A DNA stretch of 64,000 nt, taken from Desulfosporosinus sp. GTDB taxonomy: Bacteria > Bacillota > Desulfitobacteriia > Desulfitobacteriales > Desulfitobacteriaceae. The notes beneath the pieces were generated by a model. The model saw only the letters and a program-made list of their open reading frames with translations, was not told the origin of the DNA and searched no databases. Within the stretch, counting starts at the first letter, position 1, and every line of letters starts with the position of its first letter. Of the stretch, positions 5,012 to 42,554 are shown piece by piece. Both the position numbers and the translations under genes were made by a program. The stretch spans positions 1 to 64,000 of the forward strand of contig JARLHU010000016.1 in the NCBI GenBank assembly GCA_031292095.1. Direction: 5' to 3'.

Positions 5012-5155
5012 TATCTCTCACTATCGCTTAATTCTACTTAGAAGCGGGGGAACCAATTTCTGGGGTGAATCCTTTACAAGCAAATGTTTGTGAGGGTAGG
5101 GTTACTTTTCGACCCGAATCCGTCAGCTAACTTCGTAAGCGTTGAAAGGGAGGAC
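5012..5155 (+). ncRNA. c-di-AMP riboswitch (ydaO/yuaA type)
   Basis: The leader contains the conserved blocks of the ydaO-type c-di-AMP aptamer in the right order: CGCTTAAT (5025), GCGGGGGAACC (5044), GGGGTGAATCC (5062), and CCGAATCCGTCAGCTAAC (5114) running into TCGTAAGCG. The outer helix pairs CGCTTA (5025-5030) with TAAGCG (5136-5141). In known members, c-di-AMP binding favours the downstream terminator and lowers expression. A terminator follows 59 bp later, just before the citrate synthase gene. Of the stretch 4932-5261, only 4932-5011 is unexplained. Confidence 0.93.
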
Positions 5156-5213
5156 AGGCTTGAGCATTCTGTAGCTTTGCTTTGCTGTTCTTTTGCTTTT
5201 TTCGTTAGCTGTG

Positions 5214-35918: not shown

Positions 35919-37043
35919 TCAGTGTTGGCGCTGTAGGGATTCTTTAGCTTTATCGAAATCATAGCCTGTAGTGAGTTTGGATATTTCTTTCATCTTTGTT
36001 TCTGCAGGGACGTTTGCCGGGATCTTAAATTTTATGTAGAACTCCTTGAGGTCAGTCTTCGTTGATTCAGCTGCTTCCTTAATGCTCATATACCCTTTGA
36101 CTTCGTCATAATTAATGGACTCTCCCTTTTGTAGTTGGGTTGGAGTTAGATTATATATCCCAGCAGCTTGTGCAGCAAATATTGAGCCAAAGAACACTAT
36201 CATTACCAAGACTATCAAGGTAAATGGTCTAATAATTTTTTTGCCTTCCATGCTATCAATAGCGCCTGGCTTAGGGCAATTTAAGACACAGGTCTGACAA
36301 TTAATGCACTCTGCAGAGGTAACCTTCAAACTGTGCTGTACATCAATATTCATCGGACAGCCCTTACTACACTTTCCACAATTGATACACATAGTTTCAT
36401 TTCTGACTACTTTAAACGAGCTTAGTTTACCAATAATTCCGTAAAGTGCCCCCATCGGACAAAGGTATTTACAAAAAAATCTGTCATAGAAAAGTGAGCC
36501 CAGAACAGTAATAAGCAGAACAATTAGACCAACCGGAGAATCCTTCCATACGCGCTCCAATCCTTCTGAAAGATGTCCATAAGCTGACCATGGATCATAG
36601 GGCGCCATCCATAGTCCAGCAGTCTTCCACGCATAAAATACTGTAATGACTAAGACTACATATTTAAAATATCTGAAAGGTTTATCAATTTTAGCAGGCA
36701 TGATTAGCTTTCTATTGAAAATTTTCTGACCAAGTTTTGCAAAGAACTCTTGAATCCCTCCAAAAGGACAAATCAAACCGCAAAAACTACGTTTGAAAAG
36801 AATAGCGACTACTAGAGTGATGACAAACAGGGTCATTGTTCCTGCAAATATTTTGCCGATAAAGCTTCCTGTTGTAAAGACCTGGTAAAGACTCTCCAGC
36901 CCTCCAAAGGGACACAGTGCGTGGATTGAAGGCGCCTTTGCTCCTCCTAATACCTGATGGAGATAGGCGGCAAAGCTCACAAGCACTACGAATAATGCTA
37001 ACAGACCCCATCTTAAATACATTACCAGCTTATTTCTCGTCAT
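35919..37043 (-). CDS. NapH/MauN-like membrane ferredoxin
   Basis: A 374-residue integral membrane electron carrier with about five spans. CPFGGLESLYQ, CGLICPFGGIQEFF and CKYLCPMGALYG are the NapH-type CxxxCP motifs; then two cytoplasmic 4Fe-4S motifs CINCGKCSKGCP and CINCQTCVLNCP. A soluble C-terminal extension follows the last span (about residues 295-374). NapH-type proteins connect the quinol pool to a reductase; no reductase is adjacent. The ATG at 37043 follows AAGGAG by 8 nt. The promoter region carries a direct-repeat box shared with the secreted Gly/Gln-rich gene. Confidence 0.83.
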   Translation of the reverse strand: MTRNKLVMYLRWGLLALFVVLVSFAAYLHQVLGGAKAPSIHALCPFGGLESLYQVFTTGSFIGKIFAGTMTLFVITLVVAILFKRSFCGLICPFGGIQEFFAKLGQKIFNRKLIMPAKIDKPFRYFKYVVLVITVFYAWKTAGLWMAPYDPWSAYGHLSEGLERVWKDSPVGLIVLLITVLGSLFYDRFFCKYLCPMGALYGIIGKLSSFKVVRNETMCINCGKCSKGCPMNIDVQHSLKVTSAECINCQTCVLNCPKPGAIDSMEGKKIIRPFTLIVLVMIVFFGSIFAAQAAGIYNLTPTQLQKGESINYDEVKGYMSIKEAAESTKTDLKEFYIKFKIPANVPAETKMKEISKLTTGYDFDKAKESLQRQH

Positions 37044-37081
37044 CAAAAGCAACTCCTTTTTGACTACATAATATAAGGAGA

Positions 37082-37112
37082 TTGTGGCAAAAATATGGCA
37101 AAACTTTGAACC
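37082..37112 (-). promoter_or_regulatory. Putative response-regulator box upstream of the NapH-like gene
   Basis: A 31-bp block with two GGCAAAA half-sites 11 bp apart (37086 and 37097), ending TTTGAACC. It matches 27 of 31 positions at 39857-39887, upstream of the gene next to the OmpR-type regulator. The 11-bp spacing is that of OmpR/PhoB-family tandem sites. It lies 39 bp upstream of the start codon, over the -35 region. Confidence 0.55.
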
Positions 37113-37190
37113 GACTTTATTGTTTCTTATCCGACGTATTATGCGCCTGAAGTTGTTGCTAGCTATAGAAACTTGTCATTAAAAATGATA

Positions 37191-37220
37191 TTGTATATCA
37201 AGTAAGTATATGGTATATTC
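37191..37220 (+). promoter_or_regulatory. Promoter of the c-di-GMP riboswitch transcript
   Basis: TTGTAT (37191-37196), 18-bp spacer, TATATT (37215-37220), 28 bp before the aptamer. Confidence 0.5.
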
Positions 37221-37247
37221 CATACATATAGATTGAATTTAATACCT

Positions 37248-37336
37248 AGCGATAAAGGCAAACTCAGTGAAAACTGAGGACGCAAAGCCACGGGTCTCCT
37301 ACGTTATCGTAGGGAAGATAGCCGGGTTACCGACCC
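37248..37336 (+). ncRNA. c-di-GMP-I (GEMM) riboswitch
   Basis: The conserved GEMM-I blocks are all present: GATAAAGGCAAAC, the first stem-loop (CTCAGTGAAAACTGAG), GGACGCAAAGCCACGGG, the second stem (CCTACGTTATCGTAGG) and GATAGCCGGGTTACC. A terminator follows 13 bp later, and then the chemoreceptor gene. The 37044-37247 stretch holds the two divergent promoter regions. Whether c-di-GMP turns expression on or off is not decided by sequence alone. Confidence 0.95.
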
Positions 37337-37348
37337 CCAAGAATTGTC

Positions 37349-37380
37349 GCCGATCTCTGATTTCGGCGTTTTTTGTTTTA
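37349..37380 (+). terminator. Terminator of the c-di-GMP riboswitch
   Basis: CGCCGA and TCGGCG form the stem, followed by TTTTTTGTTTT, 50 bp before the chemoreceptor start. It is the likely expression platform. Confidence 0.85.
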
Positions 37381-37429
37381 TAAAAGAGAATTTGAATGGA
37401 AATCATTAATTTATTGGGAGTGATAATAG

Positions 37430-39178
37430 ATGGACGAAAAGGTAAATACTGCAAATACTCTGAAATCTGAGGCAAGCTTCGGAATACGAATTAAACTACT
37501 GCTCGGTTTTTTTGTTGTTCTACTCCTTACTCTGTTGGTTGGAGGCGTAGGTTATTACGGCGTTCATAAGATCATTTTGAGTACGGAGGATCTGGGGGGG
37601 CATTGGAGTCCAGCAAATATAAAGTTGGCGCAGGTGTTGACGGATACAGAAGACACGCGGCGCACTCTTTTGTTAGGGTTTACTATGCGGGCAGATGCGC
37701 AAGAGTTCCAGGCTGACAAAGCAAATTTCGCTAACTTTAAAACCAAATGGGATAAAGATTTTTCGGCATATATGCCATATGTAACAAGTGAGTCTGGGAA
37801 AGTAAGGACCGCAGAAATGCAGAAATTATTTACTAGCTACCTAGCAGATGCTGATCAGGTGTGGAATTTAACATCAGCTGGTAAGGATGTCGAGGCCCGC
37901 CCCATTTTAACTCAAAAAAGCAAAGCGAGCTTTGAGCAGGTCATAAAAGTTATGAATGATCAAATGGGTTTTCAGGATCAAGCAGGGTCCCAAGCCCTAG
38001 TAGATGCTCATAATACACAAAATTCTGTCTTGATGCTGCTGATTATAATCATTGTCATTGCCTTGATCGTGGGGGCTATTTTGGCGGTTATGCTAGCTCA
38101 ACATATCAGTCGGCCTCTTGTTGAGGTGACGAAGGTCGCTCAGGCTGTGGCTGACGGGGACTTAAACATTAAAATGCCTGTTATTAAAAATAGAGATGAA
38201 ATCGGACTTTTATCCCGAGCAGTAGGTCAGATGCTCGGCTCGTTACGGGAAGTCATCGGAGAAGTTTTAGTTCAGTCTGAGAATGTAGCGGCAACTAGCC
38301 AAGAGTTATCGGCTGCGGCAGAGCAAGCGACTGCTGCCAGTGGGCAGGTTTCAGACACTATCGCTCAACTTGCGGCTGGTGCAACCGATCAAGCAATATC
38401 CGTCGGAGAGACTGTTAGAGTCATTGAACAGCTGGCGGCAAGTGCCCAGCAGGTGGCAGCGAATGCAGAAATCGTTAGCCAAAGTAGTGGTAAGGCAGCA
38501 CAAGCTGCTGAATTGGGGGCTCATCAGGCTGAAAATGCTGTGCAAAAAATTGAAGAAATACGGCTGGTTTCAGCCCAAACTGCTGAAGTAATTTCTCAAT
38601 TGGGAGATCAATCAAATCAGATTGGGCAAATTGTTGATGTAATAAAGGGAATTGCCGATCAAACTAATTTGTTAGCTTTAAATGCAGCGATTGAAGCGGC
38701 ACGGGCTGGCGAACAAGGTCGAGGATTTGCAGTTGTGGCAGAAGAGGTAAGAAAGTTGGCGGAACAATCGTCGACCTCAGCAGCGCAAATTGCTACCCTA
38801 ATCGGTAATATTCAACGGGAGACAGAACGTGCCGTTGGAGTTATGGAGAAAGGGAAGGTTGAAGTGGCCGCTGGAGTCGAAGCCGTTAATTTAGCCGGCA
38901 ATTCCTTCCGAACCATTGTTATAGAGGTTAATACTGTGGTTGAGCAGATTCGTATGGTGACAGTAGCTTCACAACAAATGGCCAGTGGAACCGCCCAAAC
39001 CGTTAATTCTGTCGAAAGTATTGGGGTTGTAGCAGAACAAACCGCTGCCAGTTCGCAAGAGGTTTCCGCAGTTTCGGAGGAACAAGCTGCCACAATGGTT
39101 TCGGTGAGCCAATCCGCTGAAGCCTTGGCTAAACTCGGGGAAACTCTATCACTGGCAGTCAACAAATTTAAAGTTTAA
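37430..39178 (+). CDS. Methyl-accepting chemotaxis protein
   Basis: A 582-residue receptor. Membrane span 1 lies at about 22-46; a sensor region of about 150 residues outside the membrane resembles the four-helix-bundle MCP sensor; span 2 is at about 200-224; a HAMP domain follows ([22 protein letters not shown]), then the signalling domain with the conserved hairpin tip [20 protein letters not shown]. The C-terminus has no CheB/CheR pentapeptide. GGGAGTG precedes the ATG. The gene is controlled by the c-di-GMP riboswitch directly upstream, which links receptor level to the motile/sessile switch. Confidence 0.93.
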
Positions 39179-39230
39179 TTATGTTAGTAAGTTAAAGGGT
39201 TAAATGTCCCACGGTCAGTAAGGTTAAATA

Positions 39231-39282
39231 TAGCAATAAGATCGGGATGCCTTAAACACAAGGCATCCCGATCTTATTGCTA
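39231..39282 (+). terminator. Perfect 23-bp hairpin after the chemoreceptor gene
   Basis: Positions 39231-39253 pair without a mismatch with 39260-39282 around a 6-nt loop (AAACAC). There is no T tract. The last two bases of the stem are also the first two of the family A repeat fragment that follows. Confidence 0.6.
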
Positions 39283-39315
39283 GGCACACTCAAGAAAATA
39301 ACAAGTCAGTATGCC
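39281..39315 (+). repeat. Family A repeat, left-end fragment
   Basis: The 35 bp starting TAGGCACA match copies 1 and 2 (33 of 35 identical to copy 2); after AGTCAGTATGCC the sequence becomes unrelated. A solo left end. Confidence 0.65.
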
Positions 39316-39349
39316 TTATGATAACGTCTATGTGTTTTTGGGAATAATA

Positions 39350-39793
39350 CTATTGACCCAGTCTCATTCCACTTCTCATTCCAGCCCCATGTCGCCCCAT
39401 ACCTCGCCCCTGACCCTGACCAGCTCCAGTACCCAACCCCAGACCCAGACAGGCACTTCCAGTTCCAGCGCAAGTTATCTGATTGGACTCGATGGATTTA
39501 TAGATTCCATCTGCTTGGGTCTGGGTTAATTGGCCATTTGCTACTCTTTGAGAGAGAATTGCCTTTTGCTGTTCTAACATTTGAGTTTGAAATTCAGTTA
39601 GTTTGCCAGCCTCTTGAGCGATTGCTCCATAAGTCTTGCCCGCAGCTCTTTCCTGATTTACCGCGGCAATCGTTTTGCCTGTCACACTTGCTGCAATATC
39701 TGCAGGGGTTGTAACTGCAGCATAGGCAGTTCCTACTATCCCGAGGGTGCCAATAATGGTTGCAGATACAATCATTTTTTTGATATTTTTCAT
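39350..39793 (-). CDS. Secreted Gly/Gln/Met-rich protein (DUF2680-like)
   Basis: A 147-residue exported protein. A signal peptide ends near residue 25 (GTAYA-AVTT). A helical middle (about 30-105) resembles small secreted DUF2680/Spy-like domains (TGKTIAAVNQERAAGKTYGAIAQEAGK, GQLTQTQADGIYKSIE). The tail (about 112-147) is low-complexity: GTGAGQGQGRGMGRHGAGMR, with Met, His and Arg between glycines, which could bind metal. The sensor kinase encoded 0.9 kb away has the same kind of Gly/Gln repeat outside the membrane, and the start lies divergent from the two-component operon. Envelope-stress or metal role inferred only. Confidence 0.6.
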   Translation of the reverse strand: MKNIKKMIVSATIIGTLGIVGTAYAAVTTPADIAASVTGKTIAAVNQERAAGKTYGAIAQEAGKLTEFQTQMLEQQKAILSQRVANGQLTQTQADGIYKSIESNQITCAGTGSACLGLGLGTGAGQGQGRGMGRHGAGMRSGMRLGQ

Positions 39794-39856
39794 AAAATTA
39801 ACACTTCCTTCTCTAATTGATTTGGTTTACCTTAATGACTTTATACTATGGAGAAT

Positions 39857-39887
39857 TTGTGGCAAAAGTATGACAAAAATTCGAACC
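39857..39887 (-). promoter_or_regulatory. Putative response-regulator box upstream of the secreted Gly/Gln-rich gene
   Basis: A 31-bp block with GGCAAAA (39861) and GACAAAA (39872) half-sites 11 bp apart, ending TTCGAACC; 27 of 31 positions match the block at 37082-37112. It lies 64 bp upstream of the leftward gene and 90 bp before the two-component operon. Confidence 0.55.
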
Positions 39888-39976
39888 AATTATGTCATTT
39901 TTAGAATTGCCATAAATATGTCACAAACATTCTTAGCATTAATGATAAAATGAAAAGAGGTGAGGGAGGGGCGTTA

Positions 39977-40669
39977 TTGAACAAGTATCTACTAATTGCA
40001 GATGACAATGAAGGCATTCTCGATATATTGAAAACCTATGTTTCCAAAGCAGGATTTACAGCGATCATTGCGCACGATGGTGAAGAGGCCTTGCAGAAAT
40101 TTATGGAATTTAGACCATCGCTTGTGCTCTTAGATGTTATGATGCCCAAAAAAGACGGTTTTACGGTTTGCCGGGAAATCCGGCAATCTTCAAATGTACC
40201 CATTATCATGGTTACGGCCAAAGGAGAAGATGGGGATCGCATAATGGGACTGGACATCGGTGCGGATGATTATATTGTGAAACCCTTCAGCCCTGGAGAA
40301 GTCATGGCCCGAATTCGTGCTGTCTTAAGGCGCCTCGATATCTCAGAAGAGCAAAGCAAAGACATTGTTTGCCACCCCGGCTTGAGAATTAATATTGCTG
40401 ACTATGAAGTGATAATTGAGAAGCAACCTATCAATCTTACTAAGAAAGAAATTGAGATTTTATGGATTTTGGCCTCCAACCCAGGAAAGGTTTTCTCACG
40501 AGACAACCTGTTAAACAGTGTGTGGGGCTATGAGTATTTTGGCGATGCTCGTACAGTAGATACACATATCAAACGGCTCAGATCAAAAATAAACATTTCT
40601 GAAACCTTTAGCTGGGATATCAAAACCATTTGGGGCGTGGGGTACAAATTTGAGGTAAAGCATGTTTAA
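39977..40669 (+). CDS. OmpR-family response regulator
   Basis: A 230-residue transcription factor: receiver domain (residues 1-120) with the acidic pocket ADDNEG, phospho-Asp in LVLLDVMMPKKDG (about residue 53), Thr/Lys switch residues (MVTAKG, YIVKPF), and a winged-helix DNA-binding domain (about 130-230) with the recognition part SRDNLLNSVWGYEYFGDARTVDTHI. TTG at 39977 is preferred because GAGGGAGGGG lies 5 nt before it; an ATG at 39950 is in frame but has no ribosome binding site. The sensor gene overlaps its end by 8 bp, so the two form an operon. Confidence 0.88.
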   Translation: MNKYLLIADDNEGILDILKTYVSKAGFTAIIAHDGEEALQKFMEFRPSLVLLDVMMPKKDGFTVCREIRQSSNVPIIMVTAKGEDGDRIMGLDIGADDYIVKPFSPGEVMARIRAVLRRLDISEEQSKDIVCHPGLRINIADYEVIIEKQPINLTKKEIEILWILASNPGKVFSRDNLLNSVWGYEYFGDARTVDTHIKRLRSKINISETFSWDIKTIWGVGYKFEVKHV

Positions 40670-42554
40670 GAATAGAATTGCTTTCAAATTATCGGCGGGT
40701 TTCGTAGTCATTGTACTGGTCTCGATGATGACTATCGGACTAGTCTTTATGCAAATGTTTAGGCAATATGCCTTTGCAAGTCGTGAGCAATCGATGTTAT
40801 CCTATGCACGAAGCATCTCTGTGGTCGTGGCCGAGTACTCTCAAAGTAATGGCCAGATGCAGGGGTTCGGGGGATACATGCATTCTCTGGATACACTCAC
40901 TGAGTCAAAAGTTTGGATAACTGACAGCCAAGGAAAGCTCCTGCCTCTAATATCTGGTATGGGTCATGGAAATGGTCAGGGTCAGGGTCAGGGTATGGGA
41001 TCGGGTCAGGGTTTAGGTCAAGGTAAGGGGCAAGGTCAAGGGCAAGGTATGGGACAGGGGTCCTTTAAAAACTCAGATCCTCTGCCCAAGGAAGCTGAAA
41101 ACGTAATTCTAGAGGTACTTGCAGGGAAAGAATCGATCAGCGAAAGTTTTAGTAGCATCTATAACGAAGCGACAATAACAGTGGGGGTCCCGGTTGTTGC
41201 TTCCAACCATGCAATTATTGGCTCAGTGCTTCTCCATTCTCCAGTGACAGGGGTTACCGAAACATTGAACAGAGCCGTGCGTATTCTGGCTATCAGTCTT
41301 CTTTTGGCACTGATTCTCGCAGTGGCCTTGGGAATTTTCTACTCCTTACTCTTCACCCGTCCTTTAAAAGCAATGAACCGCGCCGCGCAGGAAATAACGC
41401 GGGGAAATTATTTGGCAAGAACAGGAGTCAAACGCCAAGATGAATTGGGACAACTAGGGGATTCACTCGACCTTCTGGCTTCAAAGCTGGGCTCTACAAT
41501 TAATCAGCTTTTCCAAGAGAAAGGAAAACTCAATGACATTATAGCGAGTATCTCTGAAGGGATCGTTGCCTTTGATTCCAGCCTGACGCCAGTCAGTGTT
41601 AATGCCGCTCTCTCGGAGATTATGAACAGACCAAATCCATATTTGTCAGAAGATATAAAAATAGACCTTAACAAATTAGAAATTGAAGCCCAGCTAACGA
41701 AAGTAATGGAAGAAAAGAAACCCTCACAAATATTGAAAGAATGGTTGGGCAAAAAGCTAATGTTTACCTTTTCACCCATTGTGGACAACCAAGGAACTGT
41801 CACAGGTAGCGTGGCGTTGGTTCAGGATATCAGTGAAAGCGTGCGTCTTGAACAACTACGTCTGGATTTTGTAGCCAATGTGTCTCATGAATTCCGAACT
41901 CCACTGACAGTTATTCGTGGTTCCCTTGAAGCGATGGTGGATGGTACCGTCGAAAAAAGCGACGAGATTAGGCACTACCACGAAAGGATGCTTGCAGAAA
42001 CGCGAGGGTTGGAACGATTGGTAGGAGACCTTTTAGAACTTTCCCGCCTTCAATCGGGTAAAACCACCATCAATAAAGAAATGCTTCATATCCCCAGCCT
42101 GCTTGCGGACACTGTCAGGAGTCTTCAGACAATCGCAGAAAAAAAGGGGATTACAATCGAATATCTTCCTGAACAAGACGTTCCTCTTTTTCTTGGTGAT
42201 TATGACCGTTTGCGCCAACTGTTGGTTATCTTTTTAGATAATGCCGTCAAATATTCCCCGCCGAACACCAGGGTGTCCGTAGAAACAAACCTGTTGGAGC
42301 TAAATATGCTTGCGATCATCATTCGCGATCAAGGGCAAGGTATTGCTGCAGATGAACTACCCCATATCTGGACTCGTTTTTACAAAATTGAAAAATCTCG
42401 CAAAGGGGAGGGTACCGGGTTGGGCCTAGCTATTGCTAAACATTTGCTAGAGCTTCATAATGGACAGGTTTCAGTCCAGAGTGAGCTGAATAAGGGTACT
42501 GTTATTGAAATCAAGTTGCCTTTAGATAAAATTAGATACAAGGAAGGTGAATAA
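40662..42554 (+). CDS. Sensor histidine kinase with extracellular Gly/Gln repeat
   Basis: A 630-residue membrane kinase. Span 1 lies at about 10-32 and span 2 at about 207-230. The external domain between them holds a low-complexity stretch at residues 99-133 (GHGNGQGQGQGMGSGQGLGQ and on). Then HAMP (about 231-285), PAS (about 290-395), HisKA with phospho-acceptor His409 (VANVSHEFRTPL), and the ATPase domain (N box FLDNAVKYSP, G boxes DQGQGI and GEGTGLGLA). It phosphorylates the OmpR-type partner encoded just upstream. The repeat DNA is a (GGTCAG)-type hexanucleotide array that could change length. Confidence 0.9.
   Translation: MFKNRIAFKLSAGFVVIVLVSMMTIGLVFMQMFRQYAFASREQSMLSYARSISVVVAEYSQSNGQMQGFGGYMHSLDTLTESKVWITDSQGKLLPLISGMGHGNGQGQGQGMGSGQGLGQGKGQGQGQGMGQGSFKNSDPLPKEAENVILEVLAGKESISESFSSIYNEATITVGVPVVASNHAIIGSVLLHSPVTGVTETLNRAVRILAISLLLALILAVALGIFYSLLFTRPLKAMNRAAQEITRGNYLARTGVKRQDELGQLGDSLDLLASKLGSTINQLFQEKGKLNDIIASISEGIVAFDSSLTPVSVNAALSEIMNRPNPYLSEDIKIDLNKLEIEAQLTKVMEEKKPSQILKEWLGKKLMFTFSPIVDNQGTVTGSVALVQDISESVRLEQLRLDFVANVSHEFRTPLTVIRGSLEAMVDGTVEKSDEIRHYHERMLAETRGLERLVGDLLELSRLQSGKTTINKEMLHIPSLLADTVRSLQTIAEKKGITIEYLPEQDVPLFLGDYDRLRQLLVIFLDNAVKYSPPNTRVSVETNLLELNMLAIIIRDQGQGIAADELPHIWTRFYKIEKSRKGEGTGLGLAIAKHLLELHNGQVSVQSELNKGTVIEIKLPLDKIRYKEGE
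40975..41058 (+). repeat. Hexanucleotide (GGTCAG/GGTCAA) array inside the sensor gene
   Basis: About 14 imperfect repeats of a six-base unit coding for Gly-Gln or Gly-Met pairs. The array is in frame, so gain or loss of units changes the external domain by two residues at a time without breaking the gene. Confidence 0.7.

Follow-up and report, generated by a model that had tools for sequence, protein, structure and literature searches.

In E. coli, Pho boxes (CTGTCAT) are composed of two 11-nt units (PMC4415409). PhoB binds at sites that overlap the -35 region (PMC3348028). Two other described systems are relevant to the genes discussed here. Cpx (CpxRA with CpxP/Spy) is a two-component system that controls a small secreted protein, and the NapH/MauN proteins are ferredoxin-type membrane proteins with 4Fe-4S motifs. 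A search of the literature on DUF2680 and on Desulfosporosinus two-component regulons found no description of the system presented below.

The DNA analyzed is a stretch of 64,000 nt from Desulfosporosinus sp., referred to as the window. It contains an OmpR/PhoB-type response regulator gene, a sensor histidine kinase gene, a gene for a secreted DUF2680 protein and a gene for a NapH-like membrane protein (Table 1). The comparisons described here indicate, with a probability of about 0.88, that a repeated box in front of these genes is the operator of the adjacent regulator, and that this regulator controls a local regulon made up of its own two-component system, the DUF2680 gene and the NapH-like gene.

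Results

Box sequences and promoter geometry

The sequences at positions 37082–37112 and 39857–39887 (+ strand) are identical at 27 of 31 positions, as described in an earlier note on this DNA. In dinucleotide-shuffled copies of both intergenic regions (n = 60), the best 31-bp match has a mean of 19.7 and a maximum of 22 identical positions. The note also placed both boxes upstream of leftward genes, and this is correct: the first box is 38 bp from the ATG of the NapH-like gene (position 37043) and the second is 63 bp from the ATG of the DUF2680 gene (position 39793). Oriented with transcription, the core sequence is TTTTGYCATANTTTTGCCACAA, with an 11-bp spacing between half-sites that agrees with the direct repeats proposed previously. 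The core consists of two units with an 11-bp period at both promoters, TTTTGCCATAT TTTTGCCACAA at the NapH-like promoter and TTTTGTCATAC TTTTGCCACAA at the DUF2680 promoter. The other bases of the 31-bp box, GGTTCRAA, keep this 11-bp register and form a third, weaker unit. Relatives have an additional upstream unit (TGACATA), which the DUF2680 promoter of the window carries as a fourth unit (TGACATAA). When up to three mismatches are allowed, the window contains two copies of the core, against 0.04 expected. The boxes thus have the tandem direct repeats of 11-bp period that characterize OmpR/PhoB-family operators.

Two classes of site can be distinguished by their distance to the -10 element. 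In class-a sites (DUF2680/NapH type, n = 37), a TATAAT-like hexamer starts exactly 10 bp past the proximal GNCAC; these sites were picked by core match, so that conservation of the core is partly built in, but the -10 spacing is not. Positions A2 and T6 of the 37 hexamers are invariant, and class-a promoters have no TTGACA-like -35 at the usual distance. In class-b sites, which are those of regulator promoters (n = 24), the distance to an extended -10 is exactly 21 bp, i.e., the class-a spacing plus one 11-bp unit, and TGnTA is invariant. The fixed distance to the -10, with overlap of the -35 region, is also a property of OmpR/PhoB-family operators. Both position and phase of the sites are consistent with an activator that substitutes for the -35 contact.

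Table 1. Positions of genes, boxes and predicted promoter elements in the window
Feature	Position	Strand	Sequence or basis
NapH-like membrane protein with 4Fe-4S binding motifs (predicted target)	35919..37043	-	domain match and family scores
Predicted -10 (TATTAT), NapH-like promoter, exactly 10 bp from proximal half-site	37068..37073	-	sequence; spacing conserved in 37 promoters
Class-a box 1 (two 11-bp half-sites), NapH-like promoter	37082..37103	-	TTTTGCCATATTTTTGCCACAA
Degenerate third 11-bp unit of box 1 (GGTTCAAAG)	37104..37112	-	shuffle comparison and unit register
c-di-GMP-I-GGC riboswitch (72 bits) of chemoreceptor gene 37430-39178; outside the regulon	37248..37335	+	
Secreted DUF2680 protein with Gly/Gln/Met-rich tail (predicted target)	39350..39793	-	domain match
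Predicted -10 (TAGTAT), DUF2680 promoter, exactly 10 bp from proximal half-site	39843..39848	-	sequence; conserved spacing
Class-a box 2, DUF2680 promoter	39857..39878	-	TTTTGTCATACTTTTGCCACAA
Two extra units in 11-bp register (GGTTCGAA, TGACATAA), DUF2680 promoter	39879..39897	-	unit register
Class-b box 3, regulator promoter	39905..39926	+	AATTGCCATAAATATGTCACAA
Extended -10 (TGATAAAAT), regulator promoter; hexamer 21 bp from proximal half-site	39943..39951	+	TGnTA invariant in 24 regulator promoters
Response regulator of OmpR/PhoB type, predicted box-binding protein; probable TTG start at 39977	39977..40669	+	domains and family scores
Sensor histidine kinase; Gly/Met/Gln-rich insert in sensor region, conserved in orthologs	40662..42554	+	domain hits; ortholog comparison

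Occurrence in the genome

A search of the 4.59-Mb genome with the relaxed pattern TGYCAHANHTHTGYCACAA shows exactly three mismatch-free matches, all at the locus studied. The earlier note had missed the third of these, a + strand match at 39908–39926 that precedes the OmpR-type regulator gene and has conserved counterparts upstream of the regulator gene in relatives. The presence of a box at the regulator's own promoter makes it likely that the regulator autoregulates its gene. Matches with one or two mismatches are found elsewhere in the genome, but these are mostly intragenic or lack a promoter context, and a larger regulon in this genome was rejected on the basis of these pattern searches and of selected stretches. 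The earlier note had suggested a genome-wide scan, in which many random sites, including sites inside genes, would have spoken against its reading. The scan places the three perfect copies at the three local promoters, and at the informative threshold the box is rare and tied to promoters.

Conservation in relatives

Thirty genomes of the same genus were searched, with the backwards pattern as control. There are 18 perfect pattern matches compared with none for the control, and they are situated at regulator, DUF2680 or NapH promoters; one represents a regulator-type box that adjoins a second DUF2680 copy. A weight matrix built only from the three sites of the window was scored in regions chosen around genes of interest. 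It gives 58 hits with scores of at least 16 in 39 regions and none in the reversed sequence, a figure that measures site placement within preselected regions. These hits are mostly before regulator, DUF2680 or NapH genes. The pattern search alone, genome-wide with at most one mismatch, locates a DUF2680 gene distant from the regulator in nine genomes (G002, G004, G006, G007, G011, G014, G020, G021 and G022), where the box is 37–63 bp upstream of DUF2680. For 21 of the 22 DUF2680 genes with a recognised start, a site with a score of 16 or more is present within 250 bp. The exception, from G029, is downstream in a same-strand gene run that is itself led by a box. The box arrangement extends to distant Firmicutes, e.g., Enterococcus aquimarinus, Megamonas, an Anaerotruncus MAG and others, where the box and the same 10-bp spacing precede genes of secreted proteins that adjoin orthologous regulators.

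The two-component system is present in 24 of the 30 congeners, a count that includes G001, in which the kinase ortholog is found and the regulator is frame-broken in the assembly. An intact DUF2680 gene is found in 21 of the 24 genomes with the system and in none of the six without an intact system (Fisher one-sided p = 1.4e-4), a p-value that, like the site counts, is inflated by the common descent of the genomes. DUF2680 was not found in three system-bearing genomes, G003 (a single contig) and G013 and G016 (both incomplete). G019 retains only fragments of regulator and kinase, and its remnant of DUF2680 has no box. Thus the targets are absent or broken where the two-component system is absent or broken.

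Several individual loci may be mentioned. The gene run in G029 (L187:4059-7300) encodes an ABC ATPase, a MacB-like permease, a secreted protein and two successive DUF2680 proteins; the combination of a MacB-like ABC transporter with two DUF2680 proteins gives a hint of envelope stress or export. G020 has two identical boxes facing apart with 48 bp between them (L159:4613-4681); no target gene is recognisable there, and the pair may be left over from a copy of the locus that was lost. The second DUF2680 locus copies in G002 and G014 (L248 and L239) retain a regulator-type box. In G002 the sequence downstream of the second copy resembles part of a histidine kinase, which suggests that this second locus is a duplicated system in decay.

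Regulator, kinase and target proteins

The protein encoded next to one of the boxes has Response_reg and Trans_reg_C domains, i.e., the receiver and winged helix of the OmpR family, which bears out its earlier assignment as an OmpR-type regulator. Its scores are below the NCBIfam PhoB cut-offs (214 vs 296, 207 vs 270 and 163 vs 471 bits) and under every equivalog cut-off among the matches listed. The closest solved chains are RegX3 and MtrA. The Gly/Met/Gln-rich insert in the sensor region is present in all kinase orthologs examined and resembles the DUF2680 tail. A fold model of the kinase sensor region has a pLDDT of 41, too low for the model to be used.

The secreted protein matches DUF2680 only and is not matched by the Spy/CpxP (LTXXQ) family. 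Its fold model is helical, a low-confidence single-sequence model (pLDDT 62) with no significant PDB match, and no Spy/CpxP-like fold is assigned to it. The NapH-like protein scores 89.8 bits, far below the NapH family cut-off of 213 bits. In several relatives DUF2680 and NapH form a single box-led cluster. Where the two genes are neighbours (e.g., G035, G038, G042 and G058), NapH is downstream of DUF2680 on the same strand, and one box can therefore serve both. In the window they are separated by the chemoreceptor gene and its c-di-GMP riboswitch, and a separate box precedes NapH. A close NapH homolog is lacking in more than half of the congeners. The window also contains a c-di-AMP riboswitch (ydaO/yuaA leader, 105 bits) at positions 5015–5157.

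Discussion

The earlier note proposed that the NapH-like gene and the secreted-protein gene are co-regulated by the neighboring two-component system. This can now be upheld as a strong comparative prediction: a box is present at the regulator promoter, the box follows DUF2680 to unlinked loci, DUF2680 and NapH cluster, and the components are lost together. Very probably the regulator switches on its own gene together with the DUF2680 and NapH-like genes, as in many relatives. Binding by the adjacent regulator, activation rather than repression, and autoregulation are what we infer from these comparisons.

The proposed mechanism is as follows. The kinase (40662–42554) would sense an extracytoplasmic signal and phosphorylate the regulator, whose dimers would bind head to tail on direct repeats of 11 bp (TGYCAYA). 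The two proximal repeats of the NapH-like and DUF2680 promoters would take the place of the -35 and end exactly 10 bp before the -10, a geometry that points to recruitment of RNA polymerase by the regulator at both target promoters in the manner of PhoB. The regulator's own promoter has an extended -10 and its repeats are shifted upstream by one 11-bp unit, an arrangement that may provide basal expression together with positive autoregulation. The predicted output comprises the two-component system along with two target proteins, secreted DUF2680 and the NapH-like iron-sulfur protein of the membrane. As a guess, the role of the system could be an envelope or extracytoplasmic redox response.

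That the likeness of the two 31-bp stretches is due to chance, or to a functionless duplicated promoter, has a negligible probability. Both stretches are AT-rich, but the shuffled copies reach at most 22 identities against the 27 of 31 observed, and the box is kept across genus, family and order and at unlinked loci. A more specific alternative is that the box is a Pho box bound by the PhoB/PhoP ortholog of the genome, with the genes belonging to the phosphate regulon. The 11-bp TGYCAYA repeats do resemble the E. coli Pho box of two 11-nt CTGTCAT units (PMC4415409), and pst promoters were scored because of this resemblance. A weaker copy, ATTTGTCTTCATCTTGTCACAA, is found in the same genome about 154 bp before the pstS start (L295:5288-5309, C242; score 17.3), and a degenerate site precedes pst in G029 (score 13.5). 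However, scores of less than 10 were obtained for 20 of the 23 congeneric pst promoters examined, and about half of the pst promoters carry another 11-bp repeat, like ATTTAACACAAACTTTACACAG, with a different half-site. The box tracks DUF2680 and the local two-component system and not pst, and the regulator falls below the PhoB cut-offs. The regulator is accordingly not assigned as a PhoB ortholog, and membership in the Pho regulon is very improbable. The pstS site, absent from most congeneric pst promoters, may mean that another regulator recognises a similar sequence, and cross-talk with phosphate control is possible.

It is also unlikely, if less so, that binding of the regulator to the boxes serves mainly to repress the targets, or that the regulator represses its own gene. 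The sites cover the -35 region, and the sign of regulation is not derivable from sequence alone. Yet the class-a promoters have no TTGACA-like -35 at the usual distance, and the rigid 10-bp spacing to the -10 is that expected of an activator replacing the -35 contact; PhoB sites likewise overlap the -35 (PMC3348028). Activation by the adjacent regulator is therefore the preferred reading.

The Gly/Met/Gln-rich stretch common to kinase and secreted protein raises a more tentative idea: the secreted protein might bind to the sensor, or compete with the sensor for a ligand such as a metal ion, although we consider this doubtful. If true, membrane electron transfer via the NapH-like protein would be under the control of an extracellular feedback loop that is widespread in Firmicutes. 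The analysis provides a defined predicted operator, a promoter geometry and a target list for a system without a description in the literature searched. It places DUF2680, a family of no known function, and a NapH-like iron-sulfur protein in one predicted regulatory unit, and the function of DUF2680 therefore becomes testable via the regulator.

The closest likeness is to PhoB and the Pho box of E. coli, which share tandem 11-bp direct repeats with a TGTCA core overlapping the -35 (PMC4415409, PMC3348028). The present system differs in that its regulator is below the NCBIfam PhoB cut-offs, its targets are not known phosphate genes, and pst promoters of the genus are mostly without the box. MtrA, RegX3, WalR/YycF and RpaB resemble the regulator in having receiver and winged-helix domains, but it is below the listed equivalog cut-offs; the half-site TTTGYCAYA also differs from the sites of these regulators. 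As in Cpx, a two-component system is associated with a small secreted protein, here a divergent neighbor under predicted control. Unlike in Cpx, this protein matches DUF2680 and not the Spy/CpxP family in sequence. The helical model, of low confidence, gives no significant match in the PDB. The membrane protein has 4Fe-4S motifs like the NapH/MauN proteins, but it is far below the cut-off for NapH proper, and in several relatives its gene adjoins DUF2680. The predicted regulon is new, and it is of a known kind, the OmpR/PhoB-type autoregulated two-component system.
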